Assembly (NCBI GenBank): GCA_949317995.1
Contig: OX439050.1
Coordinates: 54,251,777 to 54,315,776 of the forward strand
From: Acholoe squamosa
Lineage: Eukaryota > Annelida > Polychaeta > Phyllodocida > Polynoidae
Length of the DNA: 64,000 bases
Reading direction: 5' to 3'
This document shows, piece by piece, positions 5,800 to 39,846 of the stretch. Position 1 is the first letter of the stretch. Every line of letters starts with the position of its first letter. Below the pieces are notes generated by a model. That model had not been told where the DNA came from, ran no database searches, and worked only from the letters and a program-made list of their open reading frames with translations. Position numbers and translations under genes: made by a program.

Positions 5800-8700
5800 A
5801 AGAGACAGAGAGAAGAGAGACTGGAGCTAACTAGAGCAGTATAGATGGACAAATGCTGGAACAATGAAGCAGCATTAGAGCAAGGATCAGCTGCCTGTTA
5901 GAATAAAGAAAAGACTGTGATGGATACCTGTGAAGATGAGCATAGATCGATGCTAAGTGTGAGTGGTTTACACAGTTGGACATGATCCATGAGCCTCCCT
6001 GACTAGCTCGCAGCAGTCCAGCTTTTACTAATAGAAAATCCATATTGGCCAGCTGCAGGACCTGAAACCAGAGTGCAAACTGAATGATCATATCTACCAT
6101 GGGAATACATACTACAACGCTAGTTGTCTACCTTAAAGCCATTCAGGGGATATTTTCAACAAGATTTTTTAAATCATGTTAAGCACTGGTATCTCATTCT
6201 TATAAAATGTCTCAGCAGACCACTGACATATTTTAAGAATGTACAGGGGAGTCATGATCAAATGATGATTTCGATGCATCAGCACGGTGATCTGCTCAGA
6301 CTGAGATTGAATATGGAAAAACATCTTTTGAATCCAAATACTTAAATGTACCCATACCACAATGGGCAACTGCAGGTTTTTATTTTATTCTGATTACATT
6401 GTAATAGAGAGAATGATATTTTGGTCAGTATTTAAATAATAAGCATGGAATTTTGCCTCATGATTAGAAGTTTTGTTTGTAAATCCCTTTCTTATTCGGT
6501 AAACACAAATACATTCTTTAGGGAATTTAAATTTGACAATACTGTAACCCTTGGGCCACCCGTTGGTTAGGCCTGTCAGGTTAACTATCGGTATGAAATA
6601 TTTACTATATGAGACAACACACACAAGAAAATAGAGTTTCCCAATAATGACTTTATTACAGTTTTAACAAACAACTGTCGGTATGCGTATTGATGATTGC
6701 ATGAACCTTCGATATCACTTAGAACTAGATGAACCTACATCATAGCAAAAAGTCAGACACACAAGTTGTCCTAGAGTCTAAGACATACTAACGTGTACCC
6801 AGAAATGAACCCTTATATATGGTATTAATTACCACCATGTAATTAATTAGCATAGAAATGAACATGGACACCATCCGCATGTGGCGGGAAAGCGCCAAGC
6901 GCCAATGAGTTATATAATAAGATTAAAGTCGGCGTAGTGTGAACAACAAAGGAACTATGTGAGTTAAGGAATGCACCCAGTCGGTACATGATATTAACAT
7001 AGTAAGTATACCGGTCGGTAATTATGGATGAGCAAAGAATAGCGGAGGTGCTTAACGCCCAGACCACTACAATACCAGCATCAAAACAGCTTTCACATCT
7101 TCCGTGCAGAGTGGATAGACCCCTGGCAGTGCACAGCCGGATTTTTGAGCAGGTCCTTATTTGCTTGGTGGTTTCATTTTGATGTTATGATTCAAATTAC
7201 TGAGCCTCATGTTGTAATGCCTACATTCAGCTACACTTTCCCGACACAAAGTTTGCAAGGGTTGGGCAGAAAGTGAAGCATGTTGCAAGATGCACAAATT
7301 TACCATGCAAGTACATTCAATGAAAGAGAAAAAACATTGAATGCATGATGCATTCCTGTATTATAGCTCTTCTTCATATGAAGAATTCAAACGTTAATGG
7401 AAAGCTTCTTGAGGGAAATATTATTCTTTGTCTATTTTCTTCAGTTGGTAGTTGATTTACCTAGGGCTGGTCTTAATCCTCTCATTTAGACCCCGTTGAA
7501 AAGAGGATGAGATTTCCTGGGGCTTGTTTCAGAGATTAGTAGATTTAATTCTCATCCTATCATCTAACAATGTGCAGTGTTCATATCAGTATCAAGTCAG
7601 ATCTAATCCACACAGATCAGCTCAGGATAATTCCATTGAAGCTGATTTGAAACACGATTTGATTAAACTTATTCTAATTGGTAATAGATACGGAAAAGGT
7701 GAGTCTTGCTATGGAAATGTCAAGACTTTGGTAGCAGGCCGATGTAATTTTCATTACAAGAACAAAACCAGGGTTGAAATGTGCTCGTCAAGTTGTTCCT
7801 TATTTATGTGCTGGAATTTACCAGAGATGTTTACCAATATTCTGTATATTTTCTGTGGCTATGGATTTAAGTGTTCATTATAACATCAAGTACTGTACAT
7901 GTCCCTATTTCAATATTTTGCAGTGCCCCAAAAATGTCTCCGCTCAATAAAAAAGCCCATTCCTATTCAGTTGTTTTGGAAGAACCTATATATTAAGCAA
8001 TGTTATTAGATATCCAATTAAATGATATCCAGAAGGCAGTTCTGGTAACAAGGCCTGTTCAAGATTACAAGCACAAAACAGGCAATTGTTCTCTCACGGA
8101 ATATCTATGAAATTGACACTTTCAATGTGTCCTGTAATTGCCAGCTGCAACAAGATCCAGGAGCATATTTATTAGTGCTGCAGCCAGTGACACCTGGACC
8201 CTGTTCCTTTTACAAACCTGTATAGCCCCATCTATGTTTGCTAACCAAAGCTACTATTGCAGGCAGAGCTCAAACTGTTTCCCTTTCTTATCCTGAATCC
8301 CATTATCCTGCTGTATCCACTATAAAGATGGAATAACTACTTTGGAACACAATCAAGAAATGTAATAATGTCATTCACCACCATAGTGCAACTCTTACTG
8401 GTGTATCCATAGGGCATAACACCTATTTACTTGTGCTTCATTATAAATATATTAGATATTGAGTGTGCAGATTGGCTCCGATTGGCTTTCAAGCACTAGG
8501 TCAACATGTAACATCATCTATAGTGTCATTTTCAAAATTTCACTTTGAACTATGCCTTTAACCAGGAATGTCTGAAATGTCTTCTCACTGCGATCTCAGT
8601 AACCACCATGCATTAACATCATGATTTTGCACCATGAAGGAGGAGTCAATCTGTAATAGTAAAAGGCACTGCTCAGTGCCCCTCGCTATTGCCATTAGTA

Positions 8701-9581
8701 TGTAAATAGTAGGTCTAGTCTCAATCAAGTCTATCCCAGACACTGCCAAAAACAATAAAAATCAATCCTTGCCACTCATGGGTAAGGTAATTGTCGGTCA
8801 GCAGCACCTGGTGACCGATAGTTGGACAACTGCAGTCCTATCAATAAAGGAATGTGGGGCTAGTTGATGGGTGTGCATAGTGGTTGTGAGTTATAACAAT
8901 GCTGGGAGAGGCTCATAGTGTGCCAATATATTGACTTAAGAGAGGCTTGAGTAAGGTGAATAGCAGTAGGTCAGAATTTGGGCACTGTGGGAGGCAATTG
9001 CAAAGATTCTGACCTATATTGATGCTGCATCAATATAGATAACATGCTAAGCCCCTATGTAGTCATTATATAGGGTTTGGTAAGCAGTTGCAGTAGAGAA
9101 AAAACTGCATTCTCTCTTATATTAGGCGGTTACTATAATATGTTAAGTCTTTTCCAAGATACGGGTCATTGGTAGTCTCCCGAAACTGAGATATGCTAAT
9201 ACTGCTTGACTTAGAGTTGCAGTTGGAACCCTTTAGAATGCTGACATTCAGCCATGATCAAGCCTTGTACAATAACTACATAGGTGTTGCTTATAGGGTG
9301 TGATTAACTTTGATCATCCAATGCAAATCAGATAGTTTCATATTTTAGTGTCTGTATATAGTCATACATAGCCTGTTCAGAAATAACCTCCACAGTGCTA
9401 TAGTTCCATACGACGAGAAGGCATGATTTTTAGAGAGATGGTAAATGGGCACAGATCAATGCTAAAGGTGTGCACCTCACACACTTGGACAATGTCCATG
9501 AGACTCTAAGAGCCTCAAAGTAACCCAGCCTCTCCTAATGGAAAATATATCTAGCTCCAAATCCACACTCTTAGAATAAAC

Positions 9582-9760
9582 TGTTGAATCTACCAAGCAT
9601 TCTTGTAAAATTGAACAGGAAAGCACCAAAATTGTAATGCAGTGAAGCAATGTACTTTCTACAATGAATCCTCGGATGTCGGTACAGTGAAGCACTCTGG
9701 TACAAGGATTCTCAGGAAAGTAATGGTGAAATCGTTGTCCAAAATTGCCAGAGATCCGTC
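9582..9760 (+). repeat. Dispersed repeat P, copy 1
   Basis: A block starting GTTGAATCTACC and running through TAAAATTGAACA and GCAGTGAAGCA recurs near 10040-10190, 21800-21960 and 32695-32850. The 9582 and 21800 copies are partners in the tandem duplication. The 10040 and 32695 copies lie elsewhere, so the block is also an independent repeat. No coding potential or termini were resolved. Confidence 0.5.
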
Positions 9761-10039
9761 AGTATTTTGATGACATTCTTTTGCAGTGCAGATACCCAAA
9801 CCAGACCATGGCCTGCATAAAGTCAAGAAGTAGACTGGCTTTACTTTCAATTCATGGAACTCGATTACAAAGGCTAGTAGAAACAGATGGGGAGTTTTAC
9901 TACACTTTCATGTAGATGCAGCTGTATTGAAGAAAAAAATAACGAGAAAGGAATATAGCTGAATATACGTAATCATAGTGTGCCTTAAATATGTGTATGC
10001 TCATTAGTGTCATTTAATCTACACTGTTAAAGAATGTAA

Positions 10040-10190
10040 TTGTTAAATCTACCAGGAATCCCTGTAAAATTGAGCAGTGGACCAACCTAATTCTATTGCA
10101 GTGAACCAGTACACATAGGTTTTATAAGGAGCCCAAAGTCGCAGTGTGTTAGTACAAGGTATCCCTTGTAAAGTGCCGTTTTCATATTAG
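10040..10190 (+). repeat. Dispersed repeat P, copy 2
   Basis: It reads TTGTTAAATCTACC..., then TGTAAAATTGAGCAGTGGACC and a GCAGTGAACCAGTACAC segment, in the same order as in copies 1, 3 and 4. It is about 70-80 percent similar to them by eye. Confidence 0.45.
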
Positions 10191-11677
10191 TGCCAGGAAG
10201 TAGTAGTAGCTATAGTCTACAGGCAGTCTGTAGAAGTAAATCAAAATAGATAATCAGGAGGCTTTTTTTCAATGATGTACATTTTATGGAAATTTAGACT
10301 TAAAACTTGATCACATCTGACTGTAATAATTCTGCACATGTTTTTCTAGTCTCTGACTTACAATATATTTTAGATGTGCTAATAATAAGCACTTTTATTC
10401 CTGAGCAATGGTCCCATAGTAGACTCATACAGTATGAGCAGCTCCGATTAAGCAGGACGTGGTATAATTAAAGACTTGGCACTAATCACCTCCATTGATG
10501 AGCTATTCACCAGTTTTCTAGTAGATTCCCCCTCTAAGCTACCTAATGGTTATGATGAAGATTGTTCTCCCTTTTTTGCAATTGAACTACTGTAAGCATG
10601 ACTGTGACCAGGCAAGCAAAAACACCCCTCTGCAGGGAAATTCATTATCAAAGTTCATCTCAAGATCTTTAAAATGAGACATCATTGGGTTAAATATTCC
10701 TAGTAGTTATGTCAGAACCCCTCCTTGTACATAGGTCATTATTCATATCTGAAATCAATGATTAAGCTCTAAATATATTATAAACCATAATAATGTCTAA
10801 AAACACAATAAAATCAGCCTTTATCATCAAAAATACATAATAATATGGTGATTTTTATCATAGATTTTTTATCTAGATGGAATTTTCCATTTCTGTTTTA
10901 AGTTTTGGGTTTTTGGTGAGTATCCCCAAAAATTGGCATAAAAATCAAATTTTGATTATTGGAATGGTTGCCATGGCAACCAGGAGCAGGCATATAGGTT
11001 GATTTCTCATCAAAAAGGTTCATTTTACCATCCAAATATGGGCCATTTCTAACGAAAATGGTGCATTTTAAATTTTGAATTCTGCATAAAAAAATAGCTT
11101 AATGTATTTTTATAATGATTTTAGAGTAATTTTGCCCTCCAATGCCCCCTGGTGGCCAAATGGGGAATTAAAAATCCCCCACAGAGGGGTGTTCTCCCTT
11201 GATGGGTCACAGTTGTATTTGACCATGGTATTTTGAAAACCTGTTCCGATTTTAATTTGATGCACTTATCCTCCCATATCCTGGATATACAATAGAGTCC
11301 TTAATATTGTAATAACCAGAAATAGGCATAAAGACAGAATAGATGTTGATAACTGACGACCTCTGTGTTTATGGCTTTACTTGTCTTAACTCTAACATCA
11401 GTGCTTGACTTGCATCAGATTGAGTTCACTTGTAACTTTAATAACTTGTAACTGAGACGCCCACCCTCTTTGACCACACTTGCTGCCAGCCACTGGACAT
11501 CGGAACTAACGGCTACGTATCGGGTTATTTATATCTCATTTACAGTTGCGGCTGAGAGTGCATTGCATTTTTTATATTTATCTTTGTATCTACTGGGAGG
11601 TCCAATGTTCACTGGTCATATAGAATACCTTATACCACGTTTATCACATTTCAGAACGATTTTCGGTGCCAAAACAG

Positions 11678-11898
11678 TGTAGGGGTTCGTTCCCCCGTCG
11701 GGTGTGCAGAGCCTTCAGAGGGACTGTTCACTTGGTTGTGTCACTCCCCCTATGTATACCATACAGATCCAGGGTAGTTGGAAGGTAGAGAATGTCAGGC
11801 CAGGGGAAGTAGCTCAGGGGTAGAGCTTCCGCTTCGAAGTTGGAGGGTCCCGGGTTCGAGTCCCGGTTTCTCCATGACATTTTCCGCTGACCACTACA
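11678..11898 (+). repeat. TRIM 5' LTR
   Basis: A 221-bp LTR beginning TGTAGGGG and ending CCACTACA, so it has the TG...CA ends and short inverted termini of retrotransposon LTRs. It is identical to 12145-12365. It contains a small hairpin near its start (GGGG TTCGTT CCCC) and the tRNA gene at 11803-11874. No TATA box or AATAAA signal is obvious, so transcription may rely on Pol III signals within the tRNA or on an unrecognised Pol II promoter. Confidence 0.9.
11803..11874 (+). tRNA. Alanine-type tRNA gene inside the TRIM 5' LTR, anticodon CGA
   Basis: The 72-nt sequence folds as a cloverleaf. The acceptor arm GGGGAAG pairs with TTTCTCC and includes a G3:U70 wobble, the identity signal of alanine tRNAs. 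The D arm is GCTC/GAGC. The T arm is CCGGG-TTCGAGT-CCCGG, and the discriminator base is A. The anticodon stem is weaker (TCCGC/TTGGA, one mismatch, one G:U). The loop TTCGAAG gives anticodon CGA at 11835-11837, which would read the serine codon UCG. The A box (TAGCTCAGGGGT, 11810-11821) and B box (GGTTCGAGTCC, 11853-11863) are good. A TTTT terminator at 11880-11883 lies just downstream. CCA is not encoded, as usual in eukaryotes. A 7-bp inverted pair (AATGTCA/TGACATT) flanks the tRNA. It may act as a Pol III promoter, a primer source or both. Confidence 0.75.
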
Positions 11899-11899
11899 C

Positions 11900-11913
11900 T
11901 GGTGGAGAAACCG
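11900..11913 (+). other. TRIM primer binding site matching the LTR-borne tRNA
   Basis: TGGTGGAGAAACCG begins one base after the 5' LTR. It is the exact reverse complement of the last 14 nt of the LTR-borne tRNA once CCA is added (CGGTTTCTCCA plus CCA); the next base differs. A usual metazoan tRNA-Ala, ending GCACCTCCA, would give TGGTGGAGGTGCCGG, so the site fits the element's own tRNA rather than the ordinary host one. Confidence 0.85.
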
Positions 11914-12021
11914 AGTGGTCCTGCCTCGCAAGGGGGATCTTTAGAGAGCTCGGTACCTGGACTGGTATGGTATAGACAAGCGCTTCAACTTGCTAGTGCT
12001 GAGGAACTTGGAAACAGGTGG

Positions 12022-12068
12022 CACACACAGCAATTCCTGGGAACAGGAATTAACGCGAGCTGTGTGTG
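12022..12068 (+). other. Nested hairpin in TRIM interior
   Basis: An outer stem, CACACACAGC (12022-12031) with GCTGTGTGTG (12059-12068), encloses an inner stem, AATTCCTG (12032-12039) with CAGGAATT (12044-12051), closed by loop GGAA. Non-coding LTR elements must keep packaging and dimerisation signals, and this is the strongest candidate fold in the interior. That role is inference. Confidence 0.55.
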
Positions 12069-12132
12069 ACTCAGTACTGGTACCGTTCAGACTGGACTGG
12101 AGGACTGGTTCTGGCGGGATACGGTTGAAGCT

Positions 12133-12144
12133 GGTTGGGAGGAG
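12133..12144 (+). other. TRIM polypurine tract
   Basis: A purine-rich run (GGTTGGGAGGAG) lies directly against the 3' LTR, the place and composition expected for the plus-strand priming site of an LTR element. It is interrupted by two T residues, and the last eight bases are pure purine. Confidence 0.65.
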
Positions 12145-12365
12145 TGTAGGGGTTCGTTCCCCCGTCGGGTGTGCAGAGCCTTCAGAGGGACTGTTCACTT
12201 GGTTGTGTCACTCCCCCTATGTATACCATACAGATCCAGGGTAGTTGGAAGGTAGAGAATGTCAGGCCAGGGGAAGTAGCTCAGGGGTAGAGCTTCCGCT
12301 TCGAAGTTGGAGGGTCCCGGGTTCGAGTCCCGGTTTCTCCATGACATTTTCCGCTGACCACTACA
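12145..12365 (+). repeat. TRIM 3' LTR
   Basis: Identical to the 5' LTR over 221 bp, it runs from TGTAGGGG to CCACTACA and is followed by ACAG, the duplicated target site. The absence of any difference between the LTRs indicates a very recent insertion, or sequence exchange between the LTRs. Confidence 0.9.
12270..12341 (+). tRNA. Alanine-type tRNA gene inside the TRIM 3' LTR, anticodon CGA
   Basis: An exact second copy of the tRNA at 11803-11874, placed 467 bp downstream by the LTR duplication. It has the same cloverleaf, G3:U70 pair, internal A and B boxes and downstream TTTT. From this copy, Pol III transcription would end inside the LTR and leave only a tRNA precursor. Confidence 0.75.
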
Positions 12366-13111
12366 ACAGGATAATCTGAGTGCTTTTATCACAGGATAGA
12401 GGCACTGAGAGTTGGCACTTGAATATTGACAGTTTTCTTTTTCTATACTGTTCTTATATGTGACAGCAGCTATGACATAGCTTTGACAGTGGATCATATT
12501 GAAAACATCAGCATGGGCTGGGATCAATCCAGGGATATTCTGATCCAAAGTGCTTCATCCTCTCCATTAGGCTATGGGGCTGGTCAATGGTGTTGGGTTA
12601 GATGAGTCCTATATCTGGGACCCTATGGATACCATATATTATAATGTGCCTTTTAGGGACTGACCAGTACCTAAAAGGCACTTGTGCAAGCATAATCATC
12701 ATTTATTAAATTCCTAAAGCACTGTCAATATCTGTTCGAGCTGAAAGTACTTACCTCCTACTTCACTTGATTATTGATGACTTGTAACATTATCAGACTC
12801 ACTCAGGCTTGGCTCATAATGACAGTCCATGCATCCTCTGATGACTTGGACTCTTGTTACTCAATACAGCGTCTTTTATTTCAGATCACTTAAAAAAAGG
12901 TTGTTGACGCTAGCCTGAATGCGTTACCAACTAGTTATTTATTTTGCAAACAACGTTAAAGCACTGAAAGTCTACATCGCAGCCAATTACACTGACACCT
13001 GATCAAAAATTGTTCCTAAGGTTACCTGAAAATTGAAAAAGAATATACAAATAAAGTGATGGAGCTCCAATTGTTTCCATTCGTATTTTCTAATATTGGA
13101 TTTACTGTAGT

Positions 13112-13212
13112 AGGCTTCCCTAGTCCATATTGAATGGGTCATTGGACCCTTTTTTATCCCATCTGTGTGTCTGGTGCACTTATGTGCAGGCCCAGTCACA
13201 CATATTCATTCA
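13112..13212 (+). repeat. Dispersed 180-bp repeat, diverged partial copy
   Basis: GGCTTCCCTAG, GGTGCACTTATGTGC and CAGTCACACAT occur in the same order as in the copies at 1358 and 18594, with clear divergence and a lost 3' end. Confidence 0.45.
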
Positions 13213-13883
13213 AAAATTGTAGTTTTCTTGTCACAGAAAGGCCCGAAATGGCATAAAACAACCATAACACACATTGAATTATCTTGAATATAGCCATATC
13301 GCCCTCCACCCTTTACTGGTTTCAATGCCACCCCAGAGTGACTGACAGCTTGCAGGCTGTGACTGATGCACTGAACCTGGTACGCTGCCATTGGTCTCAG
13401 GTGAGCAGTAGAGGATTACATGGGGATTTCTCTGCTGGGGTTCTATCTCACCAAAAACTGGGTCTTGTACTGCCAAAGCTTCTTAGCTGCCGCTGGTCCC
13501 GTGATATAACAGCCAGCAGGGGTAGGGTGTGCCAAATCCTTGCTAGTGTAACAGCAGGGTATCGTGTAAGCCTCCCCCTATAACAAAAGAAAACATGTCC
13601 CTTTGATGCCCCAAAATGTTTAAAAAGAATAGATATTTCCCTCTGGCTGCAGGGAAATTTTGGTCTGAAAATAATTTTTTTTCTTCCTCTGGCTGACCAT
13701 ATTGTTTGCTGAAAAAATCCACAGTCCAAGGAATAAGAAATACATGACCTAAAGTATTAAAACTAAACTGTTAGACAGTCCCATTCCAATGCCAGATGTA
13801 AAAGATTTCAAGCTCTACCTCTAGCAGATCCAGAAATAAATTTACCCAGCCTTTAAGGTCCTACACATGGGATTCCAGGACAT

Positions 13884-14021
13884 ATTTCATACAGCAGGTT
13901 AAAAGAAAATGATTGTCTGTTTTGTCAGTACATGAGCTCTCACACAGAATCAGATGATGAAATGAGAGCTCATGTACTGACAAAACAGACAATCATTCAC
14001 TTTCAACCTGCTGTGTGAAAT
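13884..14021. repeat. 138-bp long inverted repeat (foldback element)
   Basis: Two arms of about 60 bp, from ATTTCATACAGCAGG on the left to CCTGCTGTGTGAAAT on the right, flank a short loop around 13955. The inner 36 bp of each arm pair perfectly (for example TTTTGTCAGTACATGAGCTC). The arms differ at only a few positions, so the hairpin is young or maintained. It has no coding potential and is absent from unit 2 of the duplication. Confidence 0.75.
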
Positions 14022-17000
14022 CTATACTATGATTATTAGCTACAATGCATTTCAGGAGACTGCCAATGAAACAGGACCCTTTAAGGTTGAATGCTTTTGA
14101 ATTTTCTGCCTGTATCATTCTAGGTTCTACACTTTAATATCACCAATGGTGTATCCTAATGCCACAGCGTGCTGTTAATCCAACAGGGTAGGATAGCATA
14201 AGCCCTTACTTTGCCCATATCATTAGATCAAGACATTTAGGTAAAACTCAATTTGAGATTAACCAGTAACAAGGGAATAGTACTAATTATATAAAGGCAG
14301 TGTGGCAAACCCGGTTTACATCAAAGGTTCTGAGCTTCCAACAATTACTAATCTATTGCAAAGTTTAGATCATTCACTTGAAAACCTCTGGCAAAAATAG
14401 CCAGTTTGGCATCAGTCCTCAAAATGTGAAGCTATGTATTATAAGTAAACATAATTAAAATTGACACAAATCCTGGAGGGTTGCACTAGACAATGATTTG
14501 GAGACTAGCATCACCCTTGTCTGAGGCCAAACGAATTTGGATTCCATATTGTTTCGAAGCTGAGTCGTGGCCTGTTTAAGTGCCCCTGCACTGATAGATT
14601 TCAATACATCTATGTATATTCCTCACCCATACAAGACGGCCATTTATTCAAAACATAATTCATAGTGCATGTAATTTTCAATTTTCAACTGTGATCTGGA
14701 CACTTATTTGAAACTGATGCTCACTCAAAGACTCAGCAGCTAGACAGGCCTCTACAGTGTAACAGATTGAAAGGAACACACGATTCTCCCTGGTAATTTT
14801 ATTGATCTGTTGACTATCCTGGAGCAATCAAACACCTTTTAGTGGGGGGAGCTGCTTGTGATAGGCTGTTCAGGTTTGATGTATTTGTTTGAAACAATTT
14901 GTCCCTTTCAAATTAATTTCCTTCGGGATGGAGGACCTGAAAGCAGCTGTATAAATGTGACAAGCAGACGGGATGTGCCCCTTAGCTGATACAGCTACTT
15001 CAGTATCATTATTGTATCTAAAATAGAAATGATAGTGTTGAAAGCAGTGTTTTTTTTAAAGTGATTATCATATGTCCTGTGTTCCTGTGCTCAGGCTATA
15101 TTACATCAGGATAATCTACTTCACAGTTATGCATCACATCATGTTCCTATCCAAGAAATGTGAATATCTATTAATAACAAAATGTGAAGAACATTGGCAC
15201 ATCAAATCCTATGCACCCTAGATATATTATATCTGACCTTGGGCTTACAATTGGGATGTTGTGCTATCATTAAGAAATGTAAACAGATGTACCCCACATG
15301 CTGCCGGGTATACATCTTCTAAATACCACCGTATCAAAAAAATGCCAAAAGATGAATGAGATAAAATGTCTAGCCTTACTCTTACAGATAAACAGTTCAT
15401 CTGAAACATATTGCTATATGAAAATGATCAATAACATTTACATCAGCTTTTGAATCAATGCTGTATGTGTCACTAGGCCACACCACTCTCATGCTGCTTC
15501 TAATGAGAACAGCAATTCACAGTTTCTAATAGCAACTGATCAATATTGGCCACAAACTGATAAGCTGGCTTCAAAGCTTTGCACCCTCGTTATTCCAGAT
15601 CATGCAGTGGTTCTTCATTGCCCATATTTCTACAAAGCAGCTGTTACATATTTCTCTAATTGCAGAGACTGATTAGTATAACAATACAACAGACTATGTA
15701 CTCACTTCCTTTGTAACAAAGCCATTGTTTCCTCATTCAGGTACACATGAACAGGGGGTAAACAAGGCCAAGTTCAATGATCACAGAGAGATCTTTTGAG
15801 TCCATCGCTTGAAAGGCAACTGTACCTAAAGCAGAATTTTGCTTTTTTAGTGGATCATATTAAACGTGAATAGATAAATACAGTTTTAGTCTTTTTATTT
15901 CAGTGTGAATGGTTTTGAATTTTAAAAGAAATCATGTACCAGCAAAAGGTCATAATATGCTGCTAATAGAAAAGGAAGATTATCTACCCCAATAAATAGA
16001 TGATTATCAGAAAGAAAAATAAGAGATCATTTCAAAACAATACAATTTCTCAAGTCATTGTATCAGCACACACCCTGTATTACTTAGAAGAGTTGTAATT
16101 AAATTACTAGGCAGCCACACAACCCTCAAGTCTCAGAGACGTGGTGAAAGCTCTGGGTAATTGAGAGCTATATTATTGGATTGGAAGGAGAAGTGAAGGC
16201 CTATATTACTATCGGTCGTACAGGGTGATCCTGGTATGATTCAAGAAACCAAGTCATAGAGATTTAAGAGGTGAACCATATCATCAGGGCATATGTTCGT
16301 GGTTTTACTATGGTGGGCATAGTATTTGGTTTATTGATTAATTGATTCTTACTTGACAAATATTCTTAGAGTGAGGGCAGCTTTTGAATGGAGCCAGCAT
16401 GAACTGGTTAAGAATGAGTCCTATTGCCTGAGCTTCACTAGCGGTACAGTCTAGGCAGTGTTATCCATGCGGCACAGGCTTTCCTTTGTTCTGTCTGTTA
16501 TCATTTGTAATATAGCAATTTAGAGTATCTTTTCTGTATGTCTGCTCGGTGCCAGCTGTAAATAGATACACTGTATCATTAATACATACAGAACAAAGGA
16601 AAATGGGTGTTACAAGGAAAAACACTACTTCTTGTGCAGCCCTGCTAGCACAACTCATCCAAATGATGTCTTTTTTACGTTATTCACATGAGTTTTCACG
16701 TAAGAATGATGTAAATTGCACGAGTTGTGCTAGCTGGAATATATATGTTGCAAGTGATGTATACTTAAGGCCGCCTTAGCTTAAGCCAAATTGCATCAGG
16801 CAAGGTCAATGAGGTAGAAAGGGCTGTATGAGTGCCCAGTAGAACAGCTGAGAGGTACATCACAGATGTCAGCAGAGAGAGAGAGAGATGTGCACCATTA
16901 TATTGTTTTAATGTTGATGCTTAGTGCTAAATATATCAAAAATTCACAGCATAGTTGAACATTAGGGATCACTTTCACTGTGGCACTGTGAATTTAGTTA

Positions 17001-18240
17001 GTACTCAACACTTGTTGTGTTGCTAGGATAAGCGGTTGCCTAGCAACAGGCGTTTTATGTCATAATTCCTTAGAAACCAGGTGAAAAATCATTTATTATC
17101 TACCCGTACCTACTCCATTCAAATTCAGCCTCAGGGAGTTTATGGTGATAGGGTTGTGTTGCCATGGTTCATTGTTGCCTAGCAACTAATATATCGACAT
17201 AGCAACCAATGAAATTTACAAATATTACTGTAAAATCCAAATTCCCCTTTGCCAATAGTCATTTAAAGTTGCGCTATCAAAACTAAATTCTTTCAACGAA
17301 GCTGGTTGAGGGGCAGAAAAGGGTATAAGTGTTTGTGTTATTAAGGGCTATTTGAGGCTGTTTAAAGACCATCCTACAGCAACATCATGAATTCAGACCT
17401 TTACTGAGACGTTTGTTTTTCTTCCGAAGCAGAAGGTAACCTCACATACCGTCTAGCTATAACCCGCACTGACCACTAGACAGCCTAGTAGCCCTCAAAC
17501 TGCCTTCCTCACACAACCCCTAGTGAGCTCCAGACAGCCTTACATACCATCTAGTAACTATGAAATTGTCTCACATACCCCCTTGTATCCACCAGACAAC
17601 CATGGTAGCAGATGTATTGTGTGGTAGCTATGTGTTGGTTCAATGCCATTGATCAACCTACAGAGTGAGCTAATGAGCAATAATTTGGGAGAAGCTCAAT
17701 TATAGTGGTTATGCAAACTAGAAAATAGTGACACTATAAACAACATTGGATTCATGACAGATCATATAGAGATGTAGCATACATTTGCAAGATAGGACTG
17801 AAATAAGGCAAGAAACACTTCAACAGACAAGAACTAAAAAAGGCACAACTTGACACACCAACTGGCTGACCTTTACAGGAAAACCTTTTTTTGGCAATAC
17901 ACAGTTATACAGCAACACTTGTGTCACTATCAAGGAGTAGACTGTCGTCACTATCCGAGGCGTAATCACTCAATAAATCACCTCTTTCCATTTTCCATGT
18001 CTCTTCCAGGTGGGTCCCTATCAACAAACATACAGCAAGCGATTCATCCAAAACTAACAGGAGTATCTTATCATGCAATATAACACTGAAAAGTTAGTGG
18101 TCTGAATTTTAAAGTTAACTTTTAGCACGGAGTACCCTTTCTCCTTGCCCCTATTTCAATAATGACAATATGAAAGGGATTCAACCTTGTGTAATGCGAA
18201 CAAAAACATCTGTAATAATTGGTGTGTTATCTGATTTCAA
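14022..18240. other. Non-genic DNA, mostly duplication unit 1
   Basis: I see no gene. Open frames are under 80 codons. Small structures are a 15-bp inverted repeat (TTTCCTTTGTTCTGT near 16480 and its complement near 16587) and two GTTGCCTAGCAAC palindromes at 17035 and 17174. The part beyond 17710 has no match in unit 2. Confidence 0.45.
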
Positions 18241-18593: not shown

Positions 18594-18775
18594 AGGCTTC
18601 CCTAGCCCACTTAAAAGGGTCTATATCTCCTCTTTCCTATCCCCTCAGGATGTGTGTGGTGCACATATGCGCGGGCACCGACACATCCCATTGTGAAATG
18701 TGTAGTTTAGTACTTCTCACCATGAATATGACCTTAGCTGTCAAAATGGCTTTAAACATCTATTACTCACTCACA
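18594..18775 (+). repeat. Dispersed 180-bp repeat, copy 2
   Basis: It matches 1358-1543 closely: CCCTAGCCCA, AAAAGGGTCTATAT, GGTGCACATATGCGC, then ATGAATATGACCTTAGCTG and CTATTACTCACTCAC. The flanking GAGCACAGATCGATGCT segment also recurs near 5938 and 18577. A GAGCATCGATCTG motif is common in molluscan short repeats as I recall them, so the taxonomic hint is weak evidence. Confidence 0.6.
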
Positions 18776-21700
18776 GATCGATGCTTAGTGTGATTGGTTT
18801 ACCAAGTTGGACATGATCCATGAGCCTCCCTGACTAGCTCGCAAGCAGTCCAGCCTTTCCTAATAGAAAATCCATGCTGACTAGAACCTGAAACCAGTGT
18901 ACAAACTGGATCATTGTAACGACCTTGAGGATATAATTATCCTCCATAATTGTAGTTGTCTATACCATAAAGCCATTCAATGGAGTATATCCAACACAGA
19001 TAATCTTAAGCAGTTGGTATCTCATTTCTCTAAAAGGTCTCACCAAATACTTAATCTGCCCAGACTGAAATCAAAAATGGAAAAACATCTTTGGAATGCA
19101 AATAATCAAATATGTTGATACCACAATGGGCAATTGCTTTTTTTCTGATTACATTGTAATAAGGTATTTTGGTCATGATTTTAATAAAAATGCATCGTTA
19201 TTTTGCCTATCATATTTTGGTAATCCCTTTCTGATTGGGCACACACAAATTTACAAATCCTTTAGGGAATTTAAATGACCCTGGTAAATTTGACAATAGC
19301 TACCAGCATCAAAGCAGGGTCAACATCTTCGGTGCAGAGTGGGTAGACACCTGGCATTGTATAGCCAGAGTTTTGAGCAGGACCTTATTTGCTTGGTGCT
19401 TTTCACTTTTAATCTCATGATTAAAATTACTGAGCCTCGGATTGCAATGCCTGCATTCAGCTTGTCTTCTCTTACACTTGCATGTCCTTAAGTTTGTAGG
19501 AGATGGGCAGAAAGTGCAGCATGTTGCCAGAAGTGTAAATTTACCCTGGGAGTAAATTCAATGAATGAGAAAATCATTGAGTGCATGATGCATTCCTGTA
19601 GTATAGCTATTCTTCAGACATAAAATCGAGTATTGGTCAAAGATATTATGGAAAAATACTTGCATCACAGTTTATCACAGTTACATTTTGTTAATTTTTG
19701 TGGTGCCTGTTTGTAACAAGGTAGATATCATAACATAAAACATCTGCTTTTCTAGAATTGGTTTAAATCCTCTTATTTCCGCCCTATTGGAATAATGATG
19801 AGATTTGGTTGTGCTAGTCTCTTTCTCCATAATGATATCCTATTAGCCATATTGGTTTTATGTATCAGAGATTAGTAGATTTAATTCACACCCTTTTATC
19901 CAACCATAGGCAGTGTTATATCAGCATCAAGTCAGGTCTAATCCACACAGAGAAGCTCAGGATATTTCCATTAAAGTTAATTTGAAATAAGGGTTGATTA
20001 AACTTATTTTGATTGGTAATAGATACTGAAATAGTAGATCCTATTGTGGAAATGTAATTTTCACTACGAGGACAGAACCAGTGTTAAAATGTGCTGGTCA
20101 GATTGTGCAATATTTATGTGCTGGAATTCACTGGAGGTATTAACCATAATTCTTTATAATTCTTTATTCTGTCACTATACAAGTGTTCCCCATAACCACA
20201 AAATATACTGTGTTGCTATTTCAATATCAAAGTGCCTGGAAAATGTCCCCCCTGGACAAAATAGCCCAATACTCATCCATTATTTTGGAAGAAGCTTGAT
20301 ATCAAACAAAGATATTAGATATCCAATTTCATGAGAGCCACAAGACAGTTCTTATAACAAGGTCTGTTCAAGATTACAAACACAAAACAGGCAATTGTTC
20401 TCTCATGAATTATCTATCAAATTGCCACTTTCAGTGTGTCCTACAAATGCCAGCTGCAATAAGATTTAGGAGCGTATTTTTAGTGCTGCTGCCAGTGACA
20501 CAGGGACCCTATTTCTGTACCTTTCAAACCTGAATCGCACCATCCATATTCGCTAATGCAAATCTACTATTGCAGCCAGAGCAAAAACTGTTTCTGTTTT
20601 TTATCCTGAATCCTATTCTCCTGCTGTGTCCAATATAGGGATGGAAAGGATATCTTTGGAACTCATTATTATGAAATGAAATGGTGTCACCCACCTCTCT
20701 ATTGCACCTCTTACTTGTGCATTCTTAGAACAATTATAATACCTATTCACTTGCACTTTATTATAAATATAAGAGAATATAAGTGTACAGCTTGAAAATG
20801 GCTGCCTTGGTTTTCAAACACTATGTCAACATGTAATATCATTTTTAGTGTCACTTTCAACTTTTACCCTTAAACTATTTCTTTAACCGGGCATAATCAT
20901 CTCAAATGCCTTCTCACTCTGATCCCAGTAACCACCATGCATTAACATCATGATTTTGCGCAATGATGGAGGAATCACTCTGTCGATAAACATACATCAT
21001 ACTACACATTATACTCCTAGTAAAAGGCACTGCAGTGAGCCCCTCAGTATTGCCAGTAGTGTATGGAAATAGTAGGTCTAGTCTCGATCGAGTCTATCCC
21101 AGATATTGCCAAAAAGAATAAAAATCAATCATTGCCACTCCCGGGTGAGGCAATGGTTGGTGAGCAGCACCCAATGACCGATAGATGGACAACCACACTC
21201 CTATCAATTAAGCAATGTTGGGCTGGTTGCTGGGTGTGCATGGTGAGTGTGCATTATAACAATGATGGGAGGGGCTCATAGTATTCCAGTATAGTGAATT
21301 AGAAGACACTTGAGTATGTTGAATAGCATTTGGTTAGAATTGAGTCACTGTGGGAGCCAATTGCAAAGATTATGACCTATAGATATATTGTTAGTGGGTC
21401 CTCGGTATGGGACTACTGTTATGCATGTTTATTCTTGACAATTGGTGTTTATTCCTATTTCTTTACACACTAAAAATTCACATGTTTCCTTCAACTTGAA
21501 ACTGTATCATAATGGATGGCCATGGGAAGTAACATCCAACTGCAAAGTGCGGTTAGCATGCATGTAGCTGTCACAGAGGATTTGGTACAGTACACCTGCA
21601 TTGGCACTGATATAAGGTTGTAATGTCAGTAGTTGCATGGTGTGAAGTAACCTCCCAAAGAACCAAACCAAATGAGTGGAAAAGGGTCTAACACATTCAG

Positions 21701-21799
21701 ACATTATCCATGAGACTCTAACAGCAGCCTCAAAGAAGCCCAGTCTCTTCTAATGGAAAATATATATCTTATACCATAACCACACTCTCAGAAATAACA

Positions 21800-21960
21800 G
21801 TTGAATCTACTAAGCATCCTTGTAAATCTGAAAAGTGAACAACTATTACAGCAATACAGTGAAGCAGTGTAGTTTCTACAATGAAGCCCCAGATGGAAAT
21901 AGAGTAAAGCGCTCTGATACAAGGATTCTCAGGAATATAATAGTGAAATCATTGTCTGAA
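21800..21960 (+). repeat. Dispersed repeat P, copy 3
   Basis: Partner of 9582-9760 in the tandem duplication: GTTGAATCTAC, CATCCTTGTAAATCTGAA, then GCAGTGTAGTTTCTACAATG. Confidence 0.5.
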
Positions 21961-23358
21961 AGTGTCAGAGATTTATTGTCATTTTGATGACATTCCTTTG
22001 CAGTGCAGATACTGAAACCAGAACATGGTCCGCATAAAGACTTTGAAAATGAAGCAGACCTCTGGTAACTTTGGGATAAGGATTCCACCCTTTCTCCATT
22101 GTATGTTGAGGTTTCCCATACAATAGTTCCATAGTAAAGTCATATAGGTTGAGCAGCTCCAATCAAGCAGGTGCAAGTAGTGGCATGAATGACTGATCGG
22201 CACTGATCACCTCCATTGATAAGCTAATAAAGATCTTCTCGTTTTTGTGCAAGTGAAAAACTGTAAGCATGGATTTGAGCCTGTAAGCACAATGTTGCCA
22301 AGACCTGTCTCAAGCTGCAATCACTTCCCTCTTTCTTCACTTGATTATTTATGACTTTTAACATTATCACATTCAAACTTCAGACCTGGCTCATGATGAC
22401 AGTTCATTATCCATAGCATTCCCTGATGAGTTACTGTTACTCAGTATAGCATCTCTTATATTTTAAGATTTCCAGAGCATTTGAAAACGAGCTGGTGATG
22501 CTAGTACTGCTGGTTACGTGCATGCCAAAGCACACGTATTCATCCCCAGACTAGTTTTCTTTTTTTGCCATGTAGTTTCACGTCTTAGCTAGTACACTGC
22601 CAGTGGTCTCAGGTGAGTGTTAGAGGATTACATTGGGATTTATCTGCTGGGGTTCTATGTCACAATAAAAGAACCCCATAGACCTCTCCCTTATTCTAAG
22701 ATCCATAGTCTATCCTGGAGCATCCTGGATAGGCTGTTCAGGTTTGATGTATTTGCTACAAGAATTTGTCCCATTCAAAGAATTTTCCTTCAGCTGAATA
22801 GAGGACTTGAAAAGGGCTATACAAATGTGAGGAGCGGACGAGACATGGCACTTAGCTGATAGGGCTACTTCAGTTTTATGAACACATCTAACACATTGAG
22901 ATGTATTCTGCTATCTATCACAGAGTTCTTATCATTGTATCTACAATTGATATAATGGTGTTGCAAGCAGGGTATATTTTTGAGTGATATGTCCTGGATG
23001 CCGGTAATCTACTTCACTGTTATGCATCATATCATGTTTAATTCCAGGAAAGGTGAATGTCTACAAGGAAATGATAAAAACATTGGCACATCAAATTCTA
23101 AGAACCCTCGACTAGATGTATTTCCTCTGACCTTGCGCTTATAATAATAATATTGTGCCACCCTAGTCTTGTAGCATGACCATTTACCACAATGGAGTAT
23201 GGTTCATGGTGATAGCAATAGTCTGTGACCGCTGGTTGGTTGGCTATAAATATCTCAGAATTTTCTGATTGTTATACTTCTGGTAGAGAATCCTCCCATA
23301 AGTGATGTCATACCAACCATCATAATGGTGCTGCTGACTATATCTACACTAGCCAGAA

Positions 23359-23671
23359 GCAAACCTGTACCGCCGTGATAGGTTAGGCCGTACTAGACTA
23401 GTGCAGCAAACCTGTACCGCCGTGATAGGTTAGGCCGTACTAGACTAGTGCAGCAAACCTGTACCACCGTGATAGGTTAGGCCGTACTAGACTAGTGCAG
23501 CAAACCTGTACCGCCGTGATAGGTTAGGCCGTACTAGACTAGTGCAGCAAACCTGTACCGCCGTGATAGGTTAGGCCGTACTAGACTAGTGCAGCAAACC
23601 TGTACCGCCGTGATAGGTTAGGCCGTACTAGACTAGTGCAGCAAACCTGTACCGCCGTGATAGGTTAGGCC
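23359..23671. repeat. 47-bp tandem array, 6.7 copies
   Basis: Units start GCAAACCTGTACCGCCGTGA and end ACTAGACTAGTGCA at exact 47-bp spacing (starts 23359, 23406, 23453, 23500, 23547, 23594, 23641). Copies are nearly identical, with one base change in the third, so the array is recently amplified. The last unit stops after 31 bp, where the composite element begins. The missing last 14 bp of the unit reappear at 24891-24904, after that element. There are no spacers between units, so this is an ordinary minisatellite. Confidence 0.92.
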
Positions 23672-23888
23672 ATATTATTCCACGATTTCTGGGATTCTGG
23701 GTGCTTTTCCTGGATATTCCCATGCACATACCTGTCGATATTGCACACCATGATGCCTGTATCATGACTTTTGTAAGGTGTGTGGTAATTCAAGGATAAC
23801 AGGCAACCAGTGCTGTTATCCATGGACATGCACACCTTACATGTCCCTACATGTCATATGTTACATATTAAAACCCACGAAATTTCAT

Positions 23889-23963
23889 GGCCAGGGCAGG
23901 GCTTGAACCTGCAGTCTCAGATCCCAAATCCAACTCCCTATGCACTGCTCCACAGAGACTGAC
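23889..23963 (-). other. tRNA-like module, reverse strand (Arg-like)
   Basis: On the reverse strand it reads CTGTGGAGCAGTGCATAGGGA, then GTTGGATTTGGGATC, and a B-box-like GGTTCAAGCCC followed by TGCCCTGG. The order resembles a tRNA-Arg body (TGTGGCGCAATGGATAGCGC...GGTTCGAGTCC). The acceptor arm does not close properly, so this is a tRNA-derived sequence, not a working tRNA gene. Confidence 0.5.
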
Positions 23964-24188
23964 GAGAGGTGGTTGGCTAGAACCAGGTCTTGATATGATA
24001 CAAAGCCTGGGGAGGTCACTCACATATAACTACTATACATTCAAAGTGTGAAAATCCCCAGCAGTCTGGATTGTGACCCCCCTCCAGCTTTGTCACTACT
24101 GCTCGCATAACAGCTGGCTGTCCGCTGCCATAACCGCGAGACGCAGAAGCATTCAAACCAAAGCAAGCCAGGCTGGGCGCTGTAGAGG

Positions 24189-24268
24189 GAGACGCCGTGG
24201 TCTAGTGGTTAGCGCACTGCGCTCAGCCGTCAAAAGTAGGCAGGTCGAGTCCCGGTCTGGGCACGTCT
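24189..24268 (+). other. tRNA-like module, plus strand (Glu/Asp-like D arm)
   Basis: It shows an A-box-like TGGTCTAGTGGTTAGCGC and a B-box-like AGGTCGAGTCCCGG, followed closely by a run of seven T residues. The arms only partly close. It points away from the reverse-strand module at 23889-23963, so the two promoters would fire in opposite directions. Confidence 0.5.
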
Positions 24269-24763
24269 TTTTTTCGCCGTGTGCCCGCTGCCAGCCGGGT
24301 GCAGAGGTGTGTGTACCGATCATGTATACATAACCGCGAGACGCATTCAAAGCAAGCCAAGCCAAGACGGACGCTGTAGCTGTCCGCTGCCGGGCGACAA
24401 GGTGTGTGTACAAACACTATTTTTTGCCGTGTGCCGCTGCCATAACCGCGAGACGCATTCAAAGCAAGCCAAGCTGAGACTGGGGCTGTAGCTGTCCACT
24501 GCCGGGTGATGAGGTGTGTGTACCGATTGTGTACAAACACTATTTTCCACCGTGTGCCACTGCCATAACCGTGAGACACATTCAAAGCAAGCCAAGCCGA
24601 GACAGGGGCTGTAGCTCTCCGCTGCTGGGCGACGAGGTGTTTGTACGACGAGGTGTACACACTATGGCTGGCTTCGAGTCCCGGGGAGGGGGGAACAATT
24701 TTTGTTTTCAACTTGAATTTGTTGATATTCTGTTGATTATCTATTGGTATCGTGGAATAAAAT

Positions 24764-24886
24764 AAGTAGTCAATGGATAATTCATGACTTGTGTGTGTTA
24801 GCAAAGGATAATTACACTCAGGCCATGCCCTCATGTAATTATCCTTTGCTAACACACACTCGTCATGAATTATCCATTGATTACTT
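24764..24886. repeat. Terminal hairpin of composite repeat, copy 1
   Basis: The 53-bp arms pair at all but about three positions, from AAGTAGTCAATGGATAA on the left to TTATCCATTGATTACTT on the right, with a short loop near 24825. The outer 17 bp match copy 2 (56192-56313). The inner stem differs between copies, yet each copy pairs with itself. Confidence 0.85.
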
Positions 24887-24904
24887 GTTCACTAGACTAG
24901 TGCA

Positions 24905-26356
24905 CCATAGCATCCAGCCGTATGTCTCTGGTTCTACTGCAGTGGGCATTGTGTTTGATTGATACATTGATTCTCATTCAAACATTCTCAGAGTAAGGAA
25001 AGCTTTTAAATTGAGCCAGCATGTTCTGTTTAAAAACGACACCTGTATAGTACTTTAGAGTATCCCTTCTGTATGTCTCCTCAGTGCTAGATGTAGATAA
25101 AAACGTACAGAACAAAGGAAAGTGAGTGTTACAAGGAAAACCGCCGTGGCTGTGCTGCTAGTGGAACACTGGCTTGTATGTTGCAAGTGAAGTATAATCA
25201 AGGCAGCCTTAACTCAAGCCAAATTGCATCAGGTAAAGTTAATGATCTAGACAAGGATGTTTGAGGGCCCAGTAGAACAGCTGCAACAGCTGCAGCCCAC
25301 TTATCGAAGAAGTAATGTATGGCCGATCCTCTTCTTGAATTTCAGTACGTCATTGGCCCCCCTCTTTGCTTTCTGCTGTGACAGCAGTATTCCGCCCCAG
25401 TAAACCTAGAGCAGCTAAATAGGCCCAATTAAAGTCCTAACTATAGTCGACACCATGGTGGGCCATCAAATTAGAACCCGATTGACGCCAGTTTTATGGT
25501 GGAAGATGGGGGGGTGGGTTCAGAACGTCATCGGCCCTATTAGTGCCGTGACACCTTAACTGGGTGGCTGGGTGGGGTGATTGTCTGGCTGCAGTAGTGA
25601 TAACAGTAGTGCTATAGCATTTCGACTCCCTTATCATCTAACTTGTGGCTATTAAGGAGTGATTTCCACAACAGTACAGTTCAGTTATGTGGAAGAAGTT
25701 TGTACAGAACCTATGATAGTAAATAGCTGTCACTAAGTGAAGGGCGTGCCTTATTTCCCTGATCGGCTCATTATTAACAGGTGTGATCAACTCCTGTTGA
25801 CTCATGTGTTGGGGCCTTTAAAGGTGCCTTAGGCCTCTTGGCCCCAGAGAAAAAAAAAGCCCTGCACTCCATTAGACAAGATCAGCATCAAATTCCCCAC
25901 ATATGCGTCTGCAAATGAGGGCCTTAAAATCTAACACTCCTAATCTAATTGTTTAGTTGAAGGTAAAGGGTAGGTCTATTGTAATCTTTTTACCCTATAT
26001 TCCCCTCCTTTCATTAGCCCACCATTGAAGTGAATTAGTTCTTTGCTGCTTTATTTCACTAAGAATCACATACATTTTATCTGCGTAAGTCTTTTATTTC
26101 TTTTTTTATAGTAATTTCTCTGAACAGCTCAGATTGTGGGTGACTGGCAAATAGGATTACTCGACTTACTTTGTCATTTAAAACATGAAAAAAGATGGTA
26201 ATTTCTCTTCGAATATTTACGACATTTCCTGCTTATTGGAACGTAGGGTAGATTTTCTTCTCTTAATTTCGTTAAAAGGTAATGAAGGGCTTCACATTAT
26301 TAAAAATATGACCCAGATCACACTACCAAGTCATAAAATTGTTTGTAACACATGAA

Positions 26357-26358
<2 letters not shown>
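24905..26358. other. Non-genic DNA of duplication unit 2
   Basis: The stretch to about 25280 matches 16290-16830 of unit 1. The rest has no gene, RNA or element that I can recognise. Confidence 0.4.
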
Positions 26359-26433
<75 letters not shown>

Positions 26434-26446
26434 GTGTGTGTGTGTG
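26359..26446. repeat. (AT)n microsatellite followed by (TG)n
   Basis: An uninterrupted (AT) run of about 73 bp is followed by a short (TG) run. The frame of alternating Ile and Tyr codons across it is an artefact of the repeat. Confidence 0.95.
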
Positions 26447-27125
26447 TCTCCACTTCAATATGCAAACATTTTAACATGACTATGTTCAAACAGATGAGAA
26501 CATACCAAGCCAGCACAATATTACAAAGTCTCTCCCTCAGCTATCTCCCTACCATTCTAACTACAACTATGACAGATGTCAAGTTAGCTTAGAAGGAAGA
26601 ACATTAGATTCTATATCAAAATGTTGATGGTTTTAGTCCATAGAGATCCTCGCCATTTTTCAGGTGGAGACCTATTCCTACTTAGTATAGAATGCAAACG
26701 CGGGCCAGCATCTGAGTTAACCCAGAAGGCCCAGAGGAATCCCATCTAGGGCCCTTGTGGACGTGCTGGCTGGGGAGGTATGTGACATTTGTAGAATATT
26801 GTAATGCATTGGTCACCCTAATGAGACCTACCTTAGCTGCAATTATCCTTGTCACCCCCATATCCGGAGGCCCCCCTCATTAGCTTAATCTGATTCCCCG
26901 AATATAATTATCCTGGATTTCACTTATATTCAAAGCCTCAGTGTGGAAACTCCATGTTGTTTTCACCTCTTTCAGCCCTAACCTATGTTTTACCTGACTA
27001 CCTCATTACGCTTTGGTATCAGACATGTTGTGCAGTGCCTGTGAGTTGGTTCACTGCCATTGATTAACCTACAGAGTGAGCTAATGAGCAGTAAGTTGAG
27101 TTAATGGGAGAAGCTCAATTATAAG

Positions 27126-31500: not shown

Positions 31501-32694
31501 TGCACACATGTAGCACACAGTAATCCTTATATGATTTGACATGCCTTAAAATGCCATGTAATCTGTGAGTTGACTAGGGTCATGGCCATGTCAAAGGCAC
31601 TTGACATGTGATGGTTTGACATACATAATTGTTCTTGGATATTCCACTAGATGGGGCAAACAACCATTTTGGTACTAGGATTTATCACTACCAAGAAGTA
31701 CTACCAACACTTGAGGCATTTGATGTATCTGTGTCATTTTGTTTTGATGAAAAATAGATCACTATGGTCTGTAAATACTATCAATGAATGGTAGTGAATT
31801 CTATTTCATTGTTAAATTTGCATTTGTTTTTGAATATCAAAATAGACACCCATCATCCTGAATACTTCAACTGGAGAGGTTAGACACCTTATGTGTGGGT
31901 CAGTGAAAATACCAAAGGACTGTATTCTAACCCACAATCTATAATCTCAGTATCTACAGTACAGGGAGACATATGGCATTGCCATGCGACTCCATGCCCT
32001 TGTCTTATGGACTGCATAGAGGTCCTCAGTCAAGTAGAAGTTCTGTAGATAGGAAAAGGTGCCTTAGTGTTGCAGGCATGTGGGACTATAATATCCCCTG
32101 CCTTCTATAATAGGTCTGCCTTGATTGAACCACTGGTACATAGCTATTGACTGCTCTTGACCTTTACATAATTGTCTCACAGTATTACCTAGCACTCAGG
32201 TGAATGGATCAGAAATATGTGACATGTCTTCATTACGTATGTCAAGTGATGTTGACGAAACAAATATGAGAGGGTCAACCTCATTCAACATGCCTTCATA
32301 CATGTCATGTGGGAGACAAATTGTGACCTGTGCAGTATGCGTCAAAGCGATCAGTGTTCTTCTCTCTGTATATACACAGAGGTTATTGATTCTCCAACTT
32401 CACCTTGTAATAATCACTGATGGAGTCTATTCATACAACTGGAGCTATCTGCTTTCATATAATATTTGACATTAGTATTTTTTATCTTCTTCCAATGAAT
32501 CTTAAATTGTGTGCACATACTTGTAATGTAAAATGCAACCAGGGAGCATACGATTTACTCTGTATAAATGGTATGAAAAACTGATGTGACATTCTTCAAA
32601 ATAGCTCTGTTTCTTGTTTTGTACCACATCAATAAACTGTAAACTCAAATTCAACCCTGAACACTAGTTACCATATCGAACTGCAAAAATAACG

Positions 32695-39782: not shown

Positions 39783-39783
39783 G

Positions 39784-39800: not shown

Positions 39801-39846
39801 TCCGAAACAGGCGGTTTCGAACCCGCGCGGTGAATATAGAACGGGG

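Follow-up and report, generated by a model that had tools for sequence, protein, structure and literature searches.

In most LTR retroelements and retroviruses, reverse transcription starts from a tRNA taken from the host. Tf1 does without one: the 5' end of its own transcript folds and acts as primer; this self-priming is named in the pertinent part of PMC6934838. RNA polymerase III (Pol III) gene sequence inside the LTRs of a TRIM is known from Cassandra and Ajax (TRIMp3), and the primer site (PBS) of Cassandra is of the methionine-tRNA type according to the portion of PMC10853983 that treats it. The closest described elements are the Helenus TRIMs, which bear tRNA-derived sequence in their LTRs. 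As portrayed in the Helenus passages of Kojima 2024 (PMC10886601), they are under or about 1 kb long and have a PBS, a polypurine tract (PPT) and, in animals, a 4-bp target site duplication (TSD); the anticodon and the body of the LTR tRNA often disagree, and in animals the elements are presumed to be moved by Gypsy. In the same passages, the PBSs of Helenus fit host tRNAs, and complementarity between LTR tRNA and PBS was sought with none found. Finally, PMC3185771, where it cites Lund 1997, describes engineered retroviral vectors in which an artificial PBS, fitting no cellular tRNA, is complemented by a designed, matching tRNA-like primer.

The window analysed here, a stretch of 64,000 nucleotides from Acholoe squamosa, contains an element of 688 bp at 11678-12365, with two identical 221-bp LTRs (TGTAG...CTACA) around an internal part of 246 bp. 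Its features are as follows.

11674..11677, no strand: left target site duplication ACAG, 4 bp (from the sequence)
11678..11898, forward strand: 5' LTR, 221 bp, TGTAG...CTACA, same letters as the 3' LTR (LTR comparison)
11803..11874, forward strand: tRNA gene of the 5' LTR with Ala-like body, G3:U70, anticodon CGA and 3' end CGGTTTCTCCA (ARAGORN, Rfam, comparison with host tRNA-Ala)
11810..11820, forward strand: A-box-like Pol III promoter segment within the tRNA (from the sequence)
11853..11863, forward strand: B-box GGTTCGAGTCC within the tRNA (from the sequence)
11880..11883, forward strand: TTTT, candidate Pol III terminator, 5 nt past the tRNA end (from the sequence and the listed junctions)
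11899..12144, forward strand: internal region, 246 bp (LTR limits, ORF list)
11900..11913, forward strand: PBS TGGTGGAGAAACCG, 14/14 complement of the LTR tRNA 3' end plus CCA (from the sequence and the junction pattern)
12136..12144, forward strand: PPT TGGGAGGAG; the Gypsy element at 39336-49694 has the same PPT letters, the next TGTA included (from the sequence)
12145..12365, forward strand: 3' LTR, 221 bp (LTR comparison)
12270..12341, forward strand: tRNA gene of the 3' LTR, identical copy (ARAGORN, Rfam)
12347..12350, forward strand: TTTT, candidate terminator of the 3' LTR (from the sequence)
12366..12369, no strand: right target site duplication ACAG, 4 bp (from the sequence)

The LTRs, the ACAG duplication, the PPT and the complete tRNA gene per LTR that an earlier note on this DNA had claimed were all located at these positions. 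With two LTRs, a TSD, a PBS, a PPT, a length below 1 kb and no protein genes, the element has the make-up of a TRIM; the internal region 11899-12144 holds no listed ORF of at least 110 aa. The putative Pol III signals in the LTR, read from the sequence, are the A-box-like and B-box-like segments, labelled by box consensus motifs, and the TTTT, which lies 5 nt past each LTR tRNA and forms the sole T4 runs of the element. None of AATAAA, ATTAAA, AGTAAA and TATAAA is present in its LTR. ARAGORN calls the LTR tRNA a tRNA-Ser with anticodon CGA, and Rfam scores it as a tRNA with 51.3 bits (E 4.3e-8). Its body is Ala-like, with a G3:U70 pair, the Ala identity element; 53-54 of 72 positions are identical to three host tRNA-Ala genes. 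The PBS starts after a 1-base gap from the 5' LTR and can pair with the CCA-extended LTR tRNA at 14/14 positions, with a mismatch at position 15, so that the complementarity of 11900-11913 to the last 14 nt of the CCA-added tRNA is exactly as claimed.

By published description the locus resembles Helenus in its tRNA-derived LTR sequence and its 4-bp TSD (PMC10886601). In contrast to the PBSs covered in those passages, its PBS complements the LTR tRNA over 14 nt and co-varies with it between families; the lack of such complementarity is a reported trait of Helenus that stands outside its definition. The earlier note's suggestion that an element with its own primer gene is unprecedented holds in part. 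LTR tRNAs in TRIMs had already been described for Helenus, but the self-complementary PBS is new because Kojima, in the passages concerned (PMC10886601), tested for this complementarity and found none. Searches of open-licence PMC papers for a tRNA in the LTR or a self-encoded primer listed no earlier description of a match between LTR tRNA and PBS, most subscription papers lying outside that scope. Cassandra and Ajax differ in having 5S rRNA rather than a tRNA. The locus shares with Tf1 a lack of need for a host tRNA primer, if read as below, but has a separate tRNA gene and a PBS beginning with TGG. The vectors of Lund 1997 are man-made with the primer supplied in trans, whereas here the pair is natural and encoded by the element (PMC3185771, in the part citing them). 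We regard the element as probably a tRNA-carrying, Helenus-like TRIM that supplies its own reverse-transcription primer. The earlier note had proposed such self-priming, and the co-variation of the PBS and the pattern searches for host tRNAs described below both speak for it.

Co-variation was assessed across the host genome (1.48 Gb, 63 contigs) with a junction pattern in which tRNA triplet 66-68 and the PBS triplet opposite may be any letters, which avoids selection on either side; the pattern prescribes PBS bases 1 to 8 as well as tRNA positions 69-73 and is blind to co-variation there. It was matched by 1372 LTR-PBS junctions, and controls gave 0. Among the 100 junctions listed, of which two are the earliest on chromosome C2 and the others lie on C1, the tRNA triplet exactly complements the PBS triplet in 97, as compared with a mean of 63.6 and a maximum of 75 in 2000 shuffles. 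Three complementary types occur (TTT/AAA 77, TGT/ACA 18, TAT/ATA 2), and the non-complementary junctions are TAT/ACA, TTT/AGA and TGT/GCA, one each. Position 67 alone is Watson-Crick paired in 98/100, and a TTTT follows the tRNA within 15 nt in 99/100. Genome-wide, G67 combines with a PBS C in 185 junctions. The co-evolution of tRNA and PBS proposed in the earlier note is thereby supported among the listed junctions, where the PBS follows the LTR tRNA in all three types. A prediction pointed the same way. The LTR tRNA of locus L063 ends in CGGTGTCTCCA, and the PBS TGGTGGAGACACCG had been predicted for its family before PBSs were searched. A search for PBSs with a changed middle base gave 271 matches (140+131; reversed controls 2 and 4), and most of those listed were TGGTGGAGACACCG, as the L063 end had predicted. 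TGTCTCCA stood just upstream in the LTR at 23 of the 30 loci listed from this search. The other seven were L073 (TAT/ATA), L076 (altered), L085 (TAT/ACA), L087 (TTT/AGA), L088 (CAT/ACA), L090, which is not a TRIM, and L101, where the tRNA is deleted from the LTR before an ACA PBS. Mismatched joins, which count against the proposal as the three non-complementary junctions do, occur in L063 and L101 (TGT LTR, AAA PBS) and in L085 and L088 (TAT and CAT LTRs, respectively, with an ACA PBS), loci that resemble recombinants and may have arisen as such.

A further test used an alignment of 57 distinct tRNA-to-PBS segments, a biased sample with many members found through PBS or tRNA patterns. Pairing in the tRNA-PBS helix amounts to 97.0%, as opposed to 92.8 on average after shuffling (0/500 as high) and 42-59% in six slid controls. 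On the other side of the balance, pairs changed on both sides number 1 versus 1.2 in shuffles (500/500 reach it), and further pair types in this helix are no more numerous than in shuffles. Pairwise comparisons of elements separate the tRNA from the rest. A TGT/ACA element, L072, is 95% identical to the window element in U3 and 94-98% in the internal part, but 80% in the tRNA plus tail, and its PBS differs from the window PBS by the base that restores pairing. Conversely, L032, L034 and L057 align only partly in U3, are 89-95% like the window element in the tRNA plus tail and have an identical PBS. Thus, the PBS travels with the tRNA and not with the backbone. The co-variation nevertheless represents few independent events, because it concerns mainly position 67 (three states) and a fixed difference at position 66 in related copies.

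LTR copies are numerous in the genome: a search gave 1380 candidates, and the 40 matches scored among them show 98-100% identity with the window LTR. In 20 regions inspected around high-identity LTR matches, full-length copies retain tRNA and PBS; single bases have changed in some, affecting the PBS in L011, L014 and L027 and the tRNA in several. The tRNA-end pattern (CGGTTTCTCCA, next base not T) has 2325 genome matches and its reversed control 0. All 30 loci listed of these matches belong to related TRIM subfamilies, as LTRs or as rearranged fragments, and differ in U3 regions, lengths and anticodon loops; the 30 are the first places on C1, and several are near copies or the two LTRs of a single element. 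This cautions that, in a genome like this one, very many tRNA gene predictions are portions of mobile elements. Three loci (L013, L014 and L015) are tandem arrays of the form LTR-internal-LTR-internal-LTR, and a paper on Cassandra (PMC7215508) has tandem arrays in its title as well. The loci L102-L111 form a further subfamily, seen in 190 bp of each, with mostly a GCA loop, a GGTTCGATCCCC-like T-arm and trailers of the GATTCGTTTT or GAAACGTTTT type. Three scans of IMG/VR for the element or the junction gave 0 matches.

One alternative is that of an ordinary Helenus TRIM, whose LTR tRNA is a Pol III promoter only, whose primer is a host tRNA (tRNA-Ala or other), and whose match between tRNA and PBS reflects tRNA-Ala ancestry. 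The description of Helenus LTR tRNAs as likely promoters only, in the passages of PMC10886601 devoted to them, favours it, as does the Ala-like LTR tRNA with a host tRNA-Ala that pairs with the window PBS at 12/14 positions. The predicted pairing to this PBS is stronger for the element's own tRNA end (-26.5 kcal/mol) than for host tRNA-Ala (-20.6 kcal/mol), and overall the own tRNA is ahead by a predicted 6 to 8 kcal/mol. An ordinary tRNA-Ala pattern recovered 89 host genes, with ends CGGCGTCTCCA (one), CGGCAACTCCA (three), CTGCATCTCCA (two) and CGGCATCTCCA (the rest). The tRNA-Ala site given in the earlier note, TGGTGGAGGTGCCGG, was therefore wrong for this host, since the usual CGGCATCTCCA ends give TGGTGGAGATGCCG as the expected site. 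The deviation that the note had deduced persists after this correction: PBS and LTR tRNA leave the usual tRNA-Ala at the same two bases, positions 66 and 67, and both vary together between families, contrary to what the host-primed model would lead one to expect. In this pattern search, 0/89 host tRNA-Ala genes have TTTCTCCA, TGTCTCCA or TATCTCCA ends. A dense cluster of host tRNA-Ala genes, mostly with TGC and CGC anticodons in turn, lies at C15:5088351-5141531 of the genome (G000).

A pattern for TTTCTCCA-ending tRNAs that excludes G at position 44 had 68 matches, all TRIM; 67 carry a TRIM tail or upstream signature (tolerant script and inspection by eye), and the 68th, at L150, is the complement of an extended TRIM PBS. 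The search for TGTCTCCA ends not before G yielded 33 matches, as opposed to 0 and 1 in the reversed control, and the majority have the T-arm letters of the family. These searches assume standard T-loop and variable-loop letters. The earlier note had named as counter-evidence a conserved host tRNA gene with the same end, together with relatives whose PBS does not follow their own LTR tRNA; by pattern there is no such gene among the 89 tRNA-Ala genes or the 68 matches, with the 33 TGTCTCCA matches outside this check. This absence from the searches made is a further point against host priming. A separate search for a non-TRIM element sharing the window PBS led to 13 sites, where TRIMs account for 11 and chance for 2; it is not a full negative because the pattern skips sites before A or NG.

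The tRNA fold bears on the same alternative, as a promoter needs no paired acceptor stem. In the alignment of 57 segments, the acceptor helix is 98.7% paired, the D helix 99.1% and the T helix 96.5%, as compared with 75.4% for the anticodon helix, in which pair 31:39 is mismatched in 57/57 segments. Pair 6:67 is altered on both sides (AU 33, UG 20, UA 3, other 1). Over the cloverleaf as a whole, pairing reaches 92.7% versus 90.1 in shuffles (0/500 as high), but cloverleaf pairs changed on both sides number 3 versus 4.6 (500/500 reach it). A tRNA that serves as primer accounts for these helices better than one that decodes, or than a promoter alone, and we consider host priming of an ordinary Helenus TRIM improbable. 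Speaking against a tRNA fold, the cloverleaf as minimum-energy fold of the window tRNA had to be rejected, with a predicted optimum of -28.1 versus -20.6 kcal/mol for the cloverleaf; in three host tRNA-Ala genes the predicted gap is about 2 kcal/mol.

Pairing in cis provides another explanation. CGGTTTCTCCA of the 5' LTR could pair with TGGAGAAACCG 28 nt downstream as a structural hairpin or for Tf1-like self-priming, or template switching could keep the inverted repeat alike, with no separate tRNA involved. The two arms indeed constitute an 11-bp inverted repeat, and the co-variation of tRNA and PBS would appear identical under such a model. The PBS, however, runs into TGG, the complement of a CCA that is absent from the LTR, the 5' strand of the acceptor co-varies as well (6:67), and the TTTT between tRNA and PBS in 99 of the 100 listed junctions would tend to separate the two in a Pol III transcript. 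On balance, cis pairing seems unlikely. Template switching could also yield the extended PBSs of two loci. In L150, past the LTR end, the complement of a GACTCC-type LTR tRNA plus CCA continues for 27 nt and then gives way to other DNA. In L100, the complement of a TGT-type tRNA plus CCA extends over 52 nt (50 identical) and breaks off within the tRNA, where the end of an antisense LTR adjoins it. Host tRNA-Ala fits both less well, with 25-27 of the first 52 positions in L100 as opposed to 50, and with mismatches within the 27 nt in L150. Extended PBSs make up 2/80 distinct PBS sites among the loci examined, and each stops inside the tRNA. Under self-priming, L100 and L150 could be fossils of copying into CCA-bearing primers of the LTR tRNA type; they are no more than suggestive, because recombination of a PBS with an antisense LTR tRNA (11 nt in common) looks alike. 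Overlapping coordinates imply a third extended PBS at C3:60118900-60118928.

The window also contains a Gypsy element of 10.4 kb (39336-49694) with LTRs of 447 and 453 bp (96.5% identical) and the TSD GTAG, which codes for a gag zinc knuckle, protease, reverse transcriptase, RNase H and integrase, spread over several frames. Gypsy and TRIM agree in several features: TGGGAGGAGTGTA stands where PPT and LTR meet, the ends are TGTA...TACA, the PBS is 14 nt long and set off by 1 nt, and the TSD measures 4 bp. An element of this Gypsy type is a candidate helper of the TRIM. Its PBS, TGGTGACAGCGGTG, served as a positive control: the corresponding pattern finds 14 host tRNA genes with a matching end, and the 12 with letters listed are all GGTTCGAATCCCACCGCTGTCA, with a match of 14 nt followed by a mismatch. 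Downstream of the Gypsy integrase, long open frames with charged low-complexity stretches occupy 45622-48344, and the longest of them (46140-48344) has no Pfam match. Elsewhere in the window, 5941-17704 and 18772-27123 are a diverged tandem duplication of about 8-12 kb in separate pieces, mostly 75-87% identical, and 28522-32451 and 36247-39218 form a second similar pair. An empty site in the second duplication copy was considered, but a TRIM-bearing block of about 2.1 kb (about 10622-12722) is without counterpart, which leaves no clean empty site. A 47-bp minisatellite (6.7 copies, 99% matches) is found at 23358-23671, and a B-box-like sequence with 1 mismatch to the TRIM tRNA at 24670-24684, near 123-bp tandem repeats.

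Least probable of all is that host tRNA genes with such 3' ends, the source of both LTR tRNA and PBS, were missed through an assembly gap, a G44 or an odd T-loop: the patterns presume standard T-loop and variable-loop letters, 30 of the 2325 matches were examined and 33 TGTCTCCA matches lie outside the TRIM check, but the same kind of pattern recovered the host genes for the Gypsy PBS and 89 tRNA-Ala genes, and up to three such tRNAs would be required, one per junction type.

If the TRIM does supply its own primer, Pol III would transcribe the LTR tRNA gene and halt at the TTTT just downstream, and the transcript would be processed like a tRNA and gain CCA. Once packaged, it may pair through its last 14 nt with the PBS and thereby start minus-strand synthesis by a Gypsy-type reverse transcriptase acting in trans. 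As a further step, this Pol III promoter might also give rise to the element RNA, if transcription passed the first TTTT and ended at the second. Depletion of T4 runs was considered as a sign of such full-length Pol III transcription. The stretch between the first terminator and the second tRNA is T4-free in 57/58 elements (1 run; 24 expected from shuffles), but this is unspecific, because A4 is also rare there (absent in 55/58 elements; 3 runs, 13 expected) and the copies are related. In retroviruses, the PBS is renewed when the end of the primer is copied during plus-strand synthesis, and Ty1 differs in this respect. If the plus strand of the TRIM copied the primer end, the PBS would take on the letters of any new tRNA, in line with the swap of tRNA and PBS between the window element and L072. 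A more far-reaching model, towards which we are inclined to be sceptical although it is by no means implausible, would have the element free of host tRNA altogether: one Pol III promoter in the LTR would yield the primer (first TTTT) and the template (second TTTT), and primer swaps would rewrite the PBS and create families with private primer-PBS pairs; L100 and L150 would then be fossils of copying into the CCA-bearing tRNA of the element itself.

Should the self-priming of this TRIM be true, an element with its own primer would break the dependence on host tRNA that characterizes most LTR retroelements and retroviruses. This would explain why a full tRNA, and not a mere promoter, is retained in the LTR, and it would make the TRIM a natural case of joint evolution of primer and PBS.
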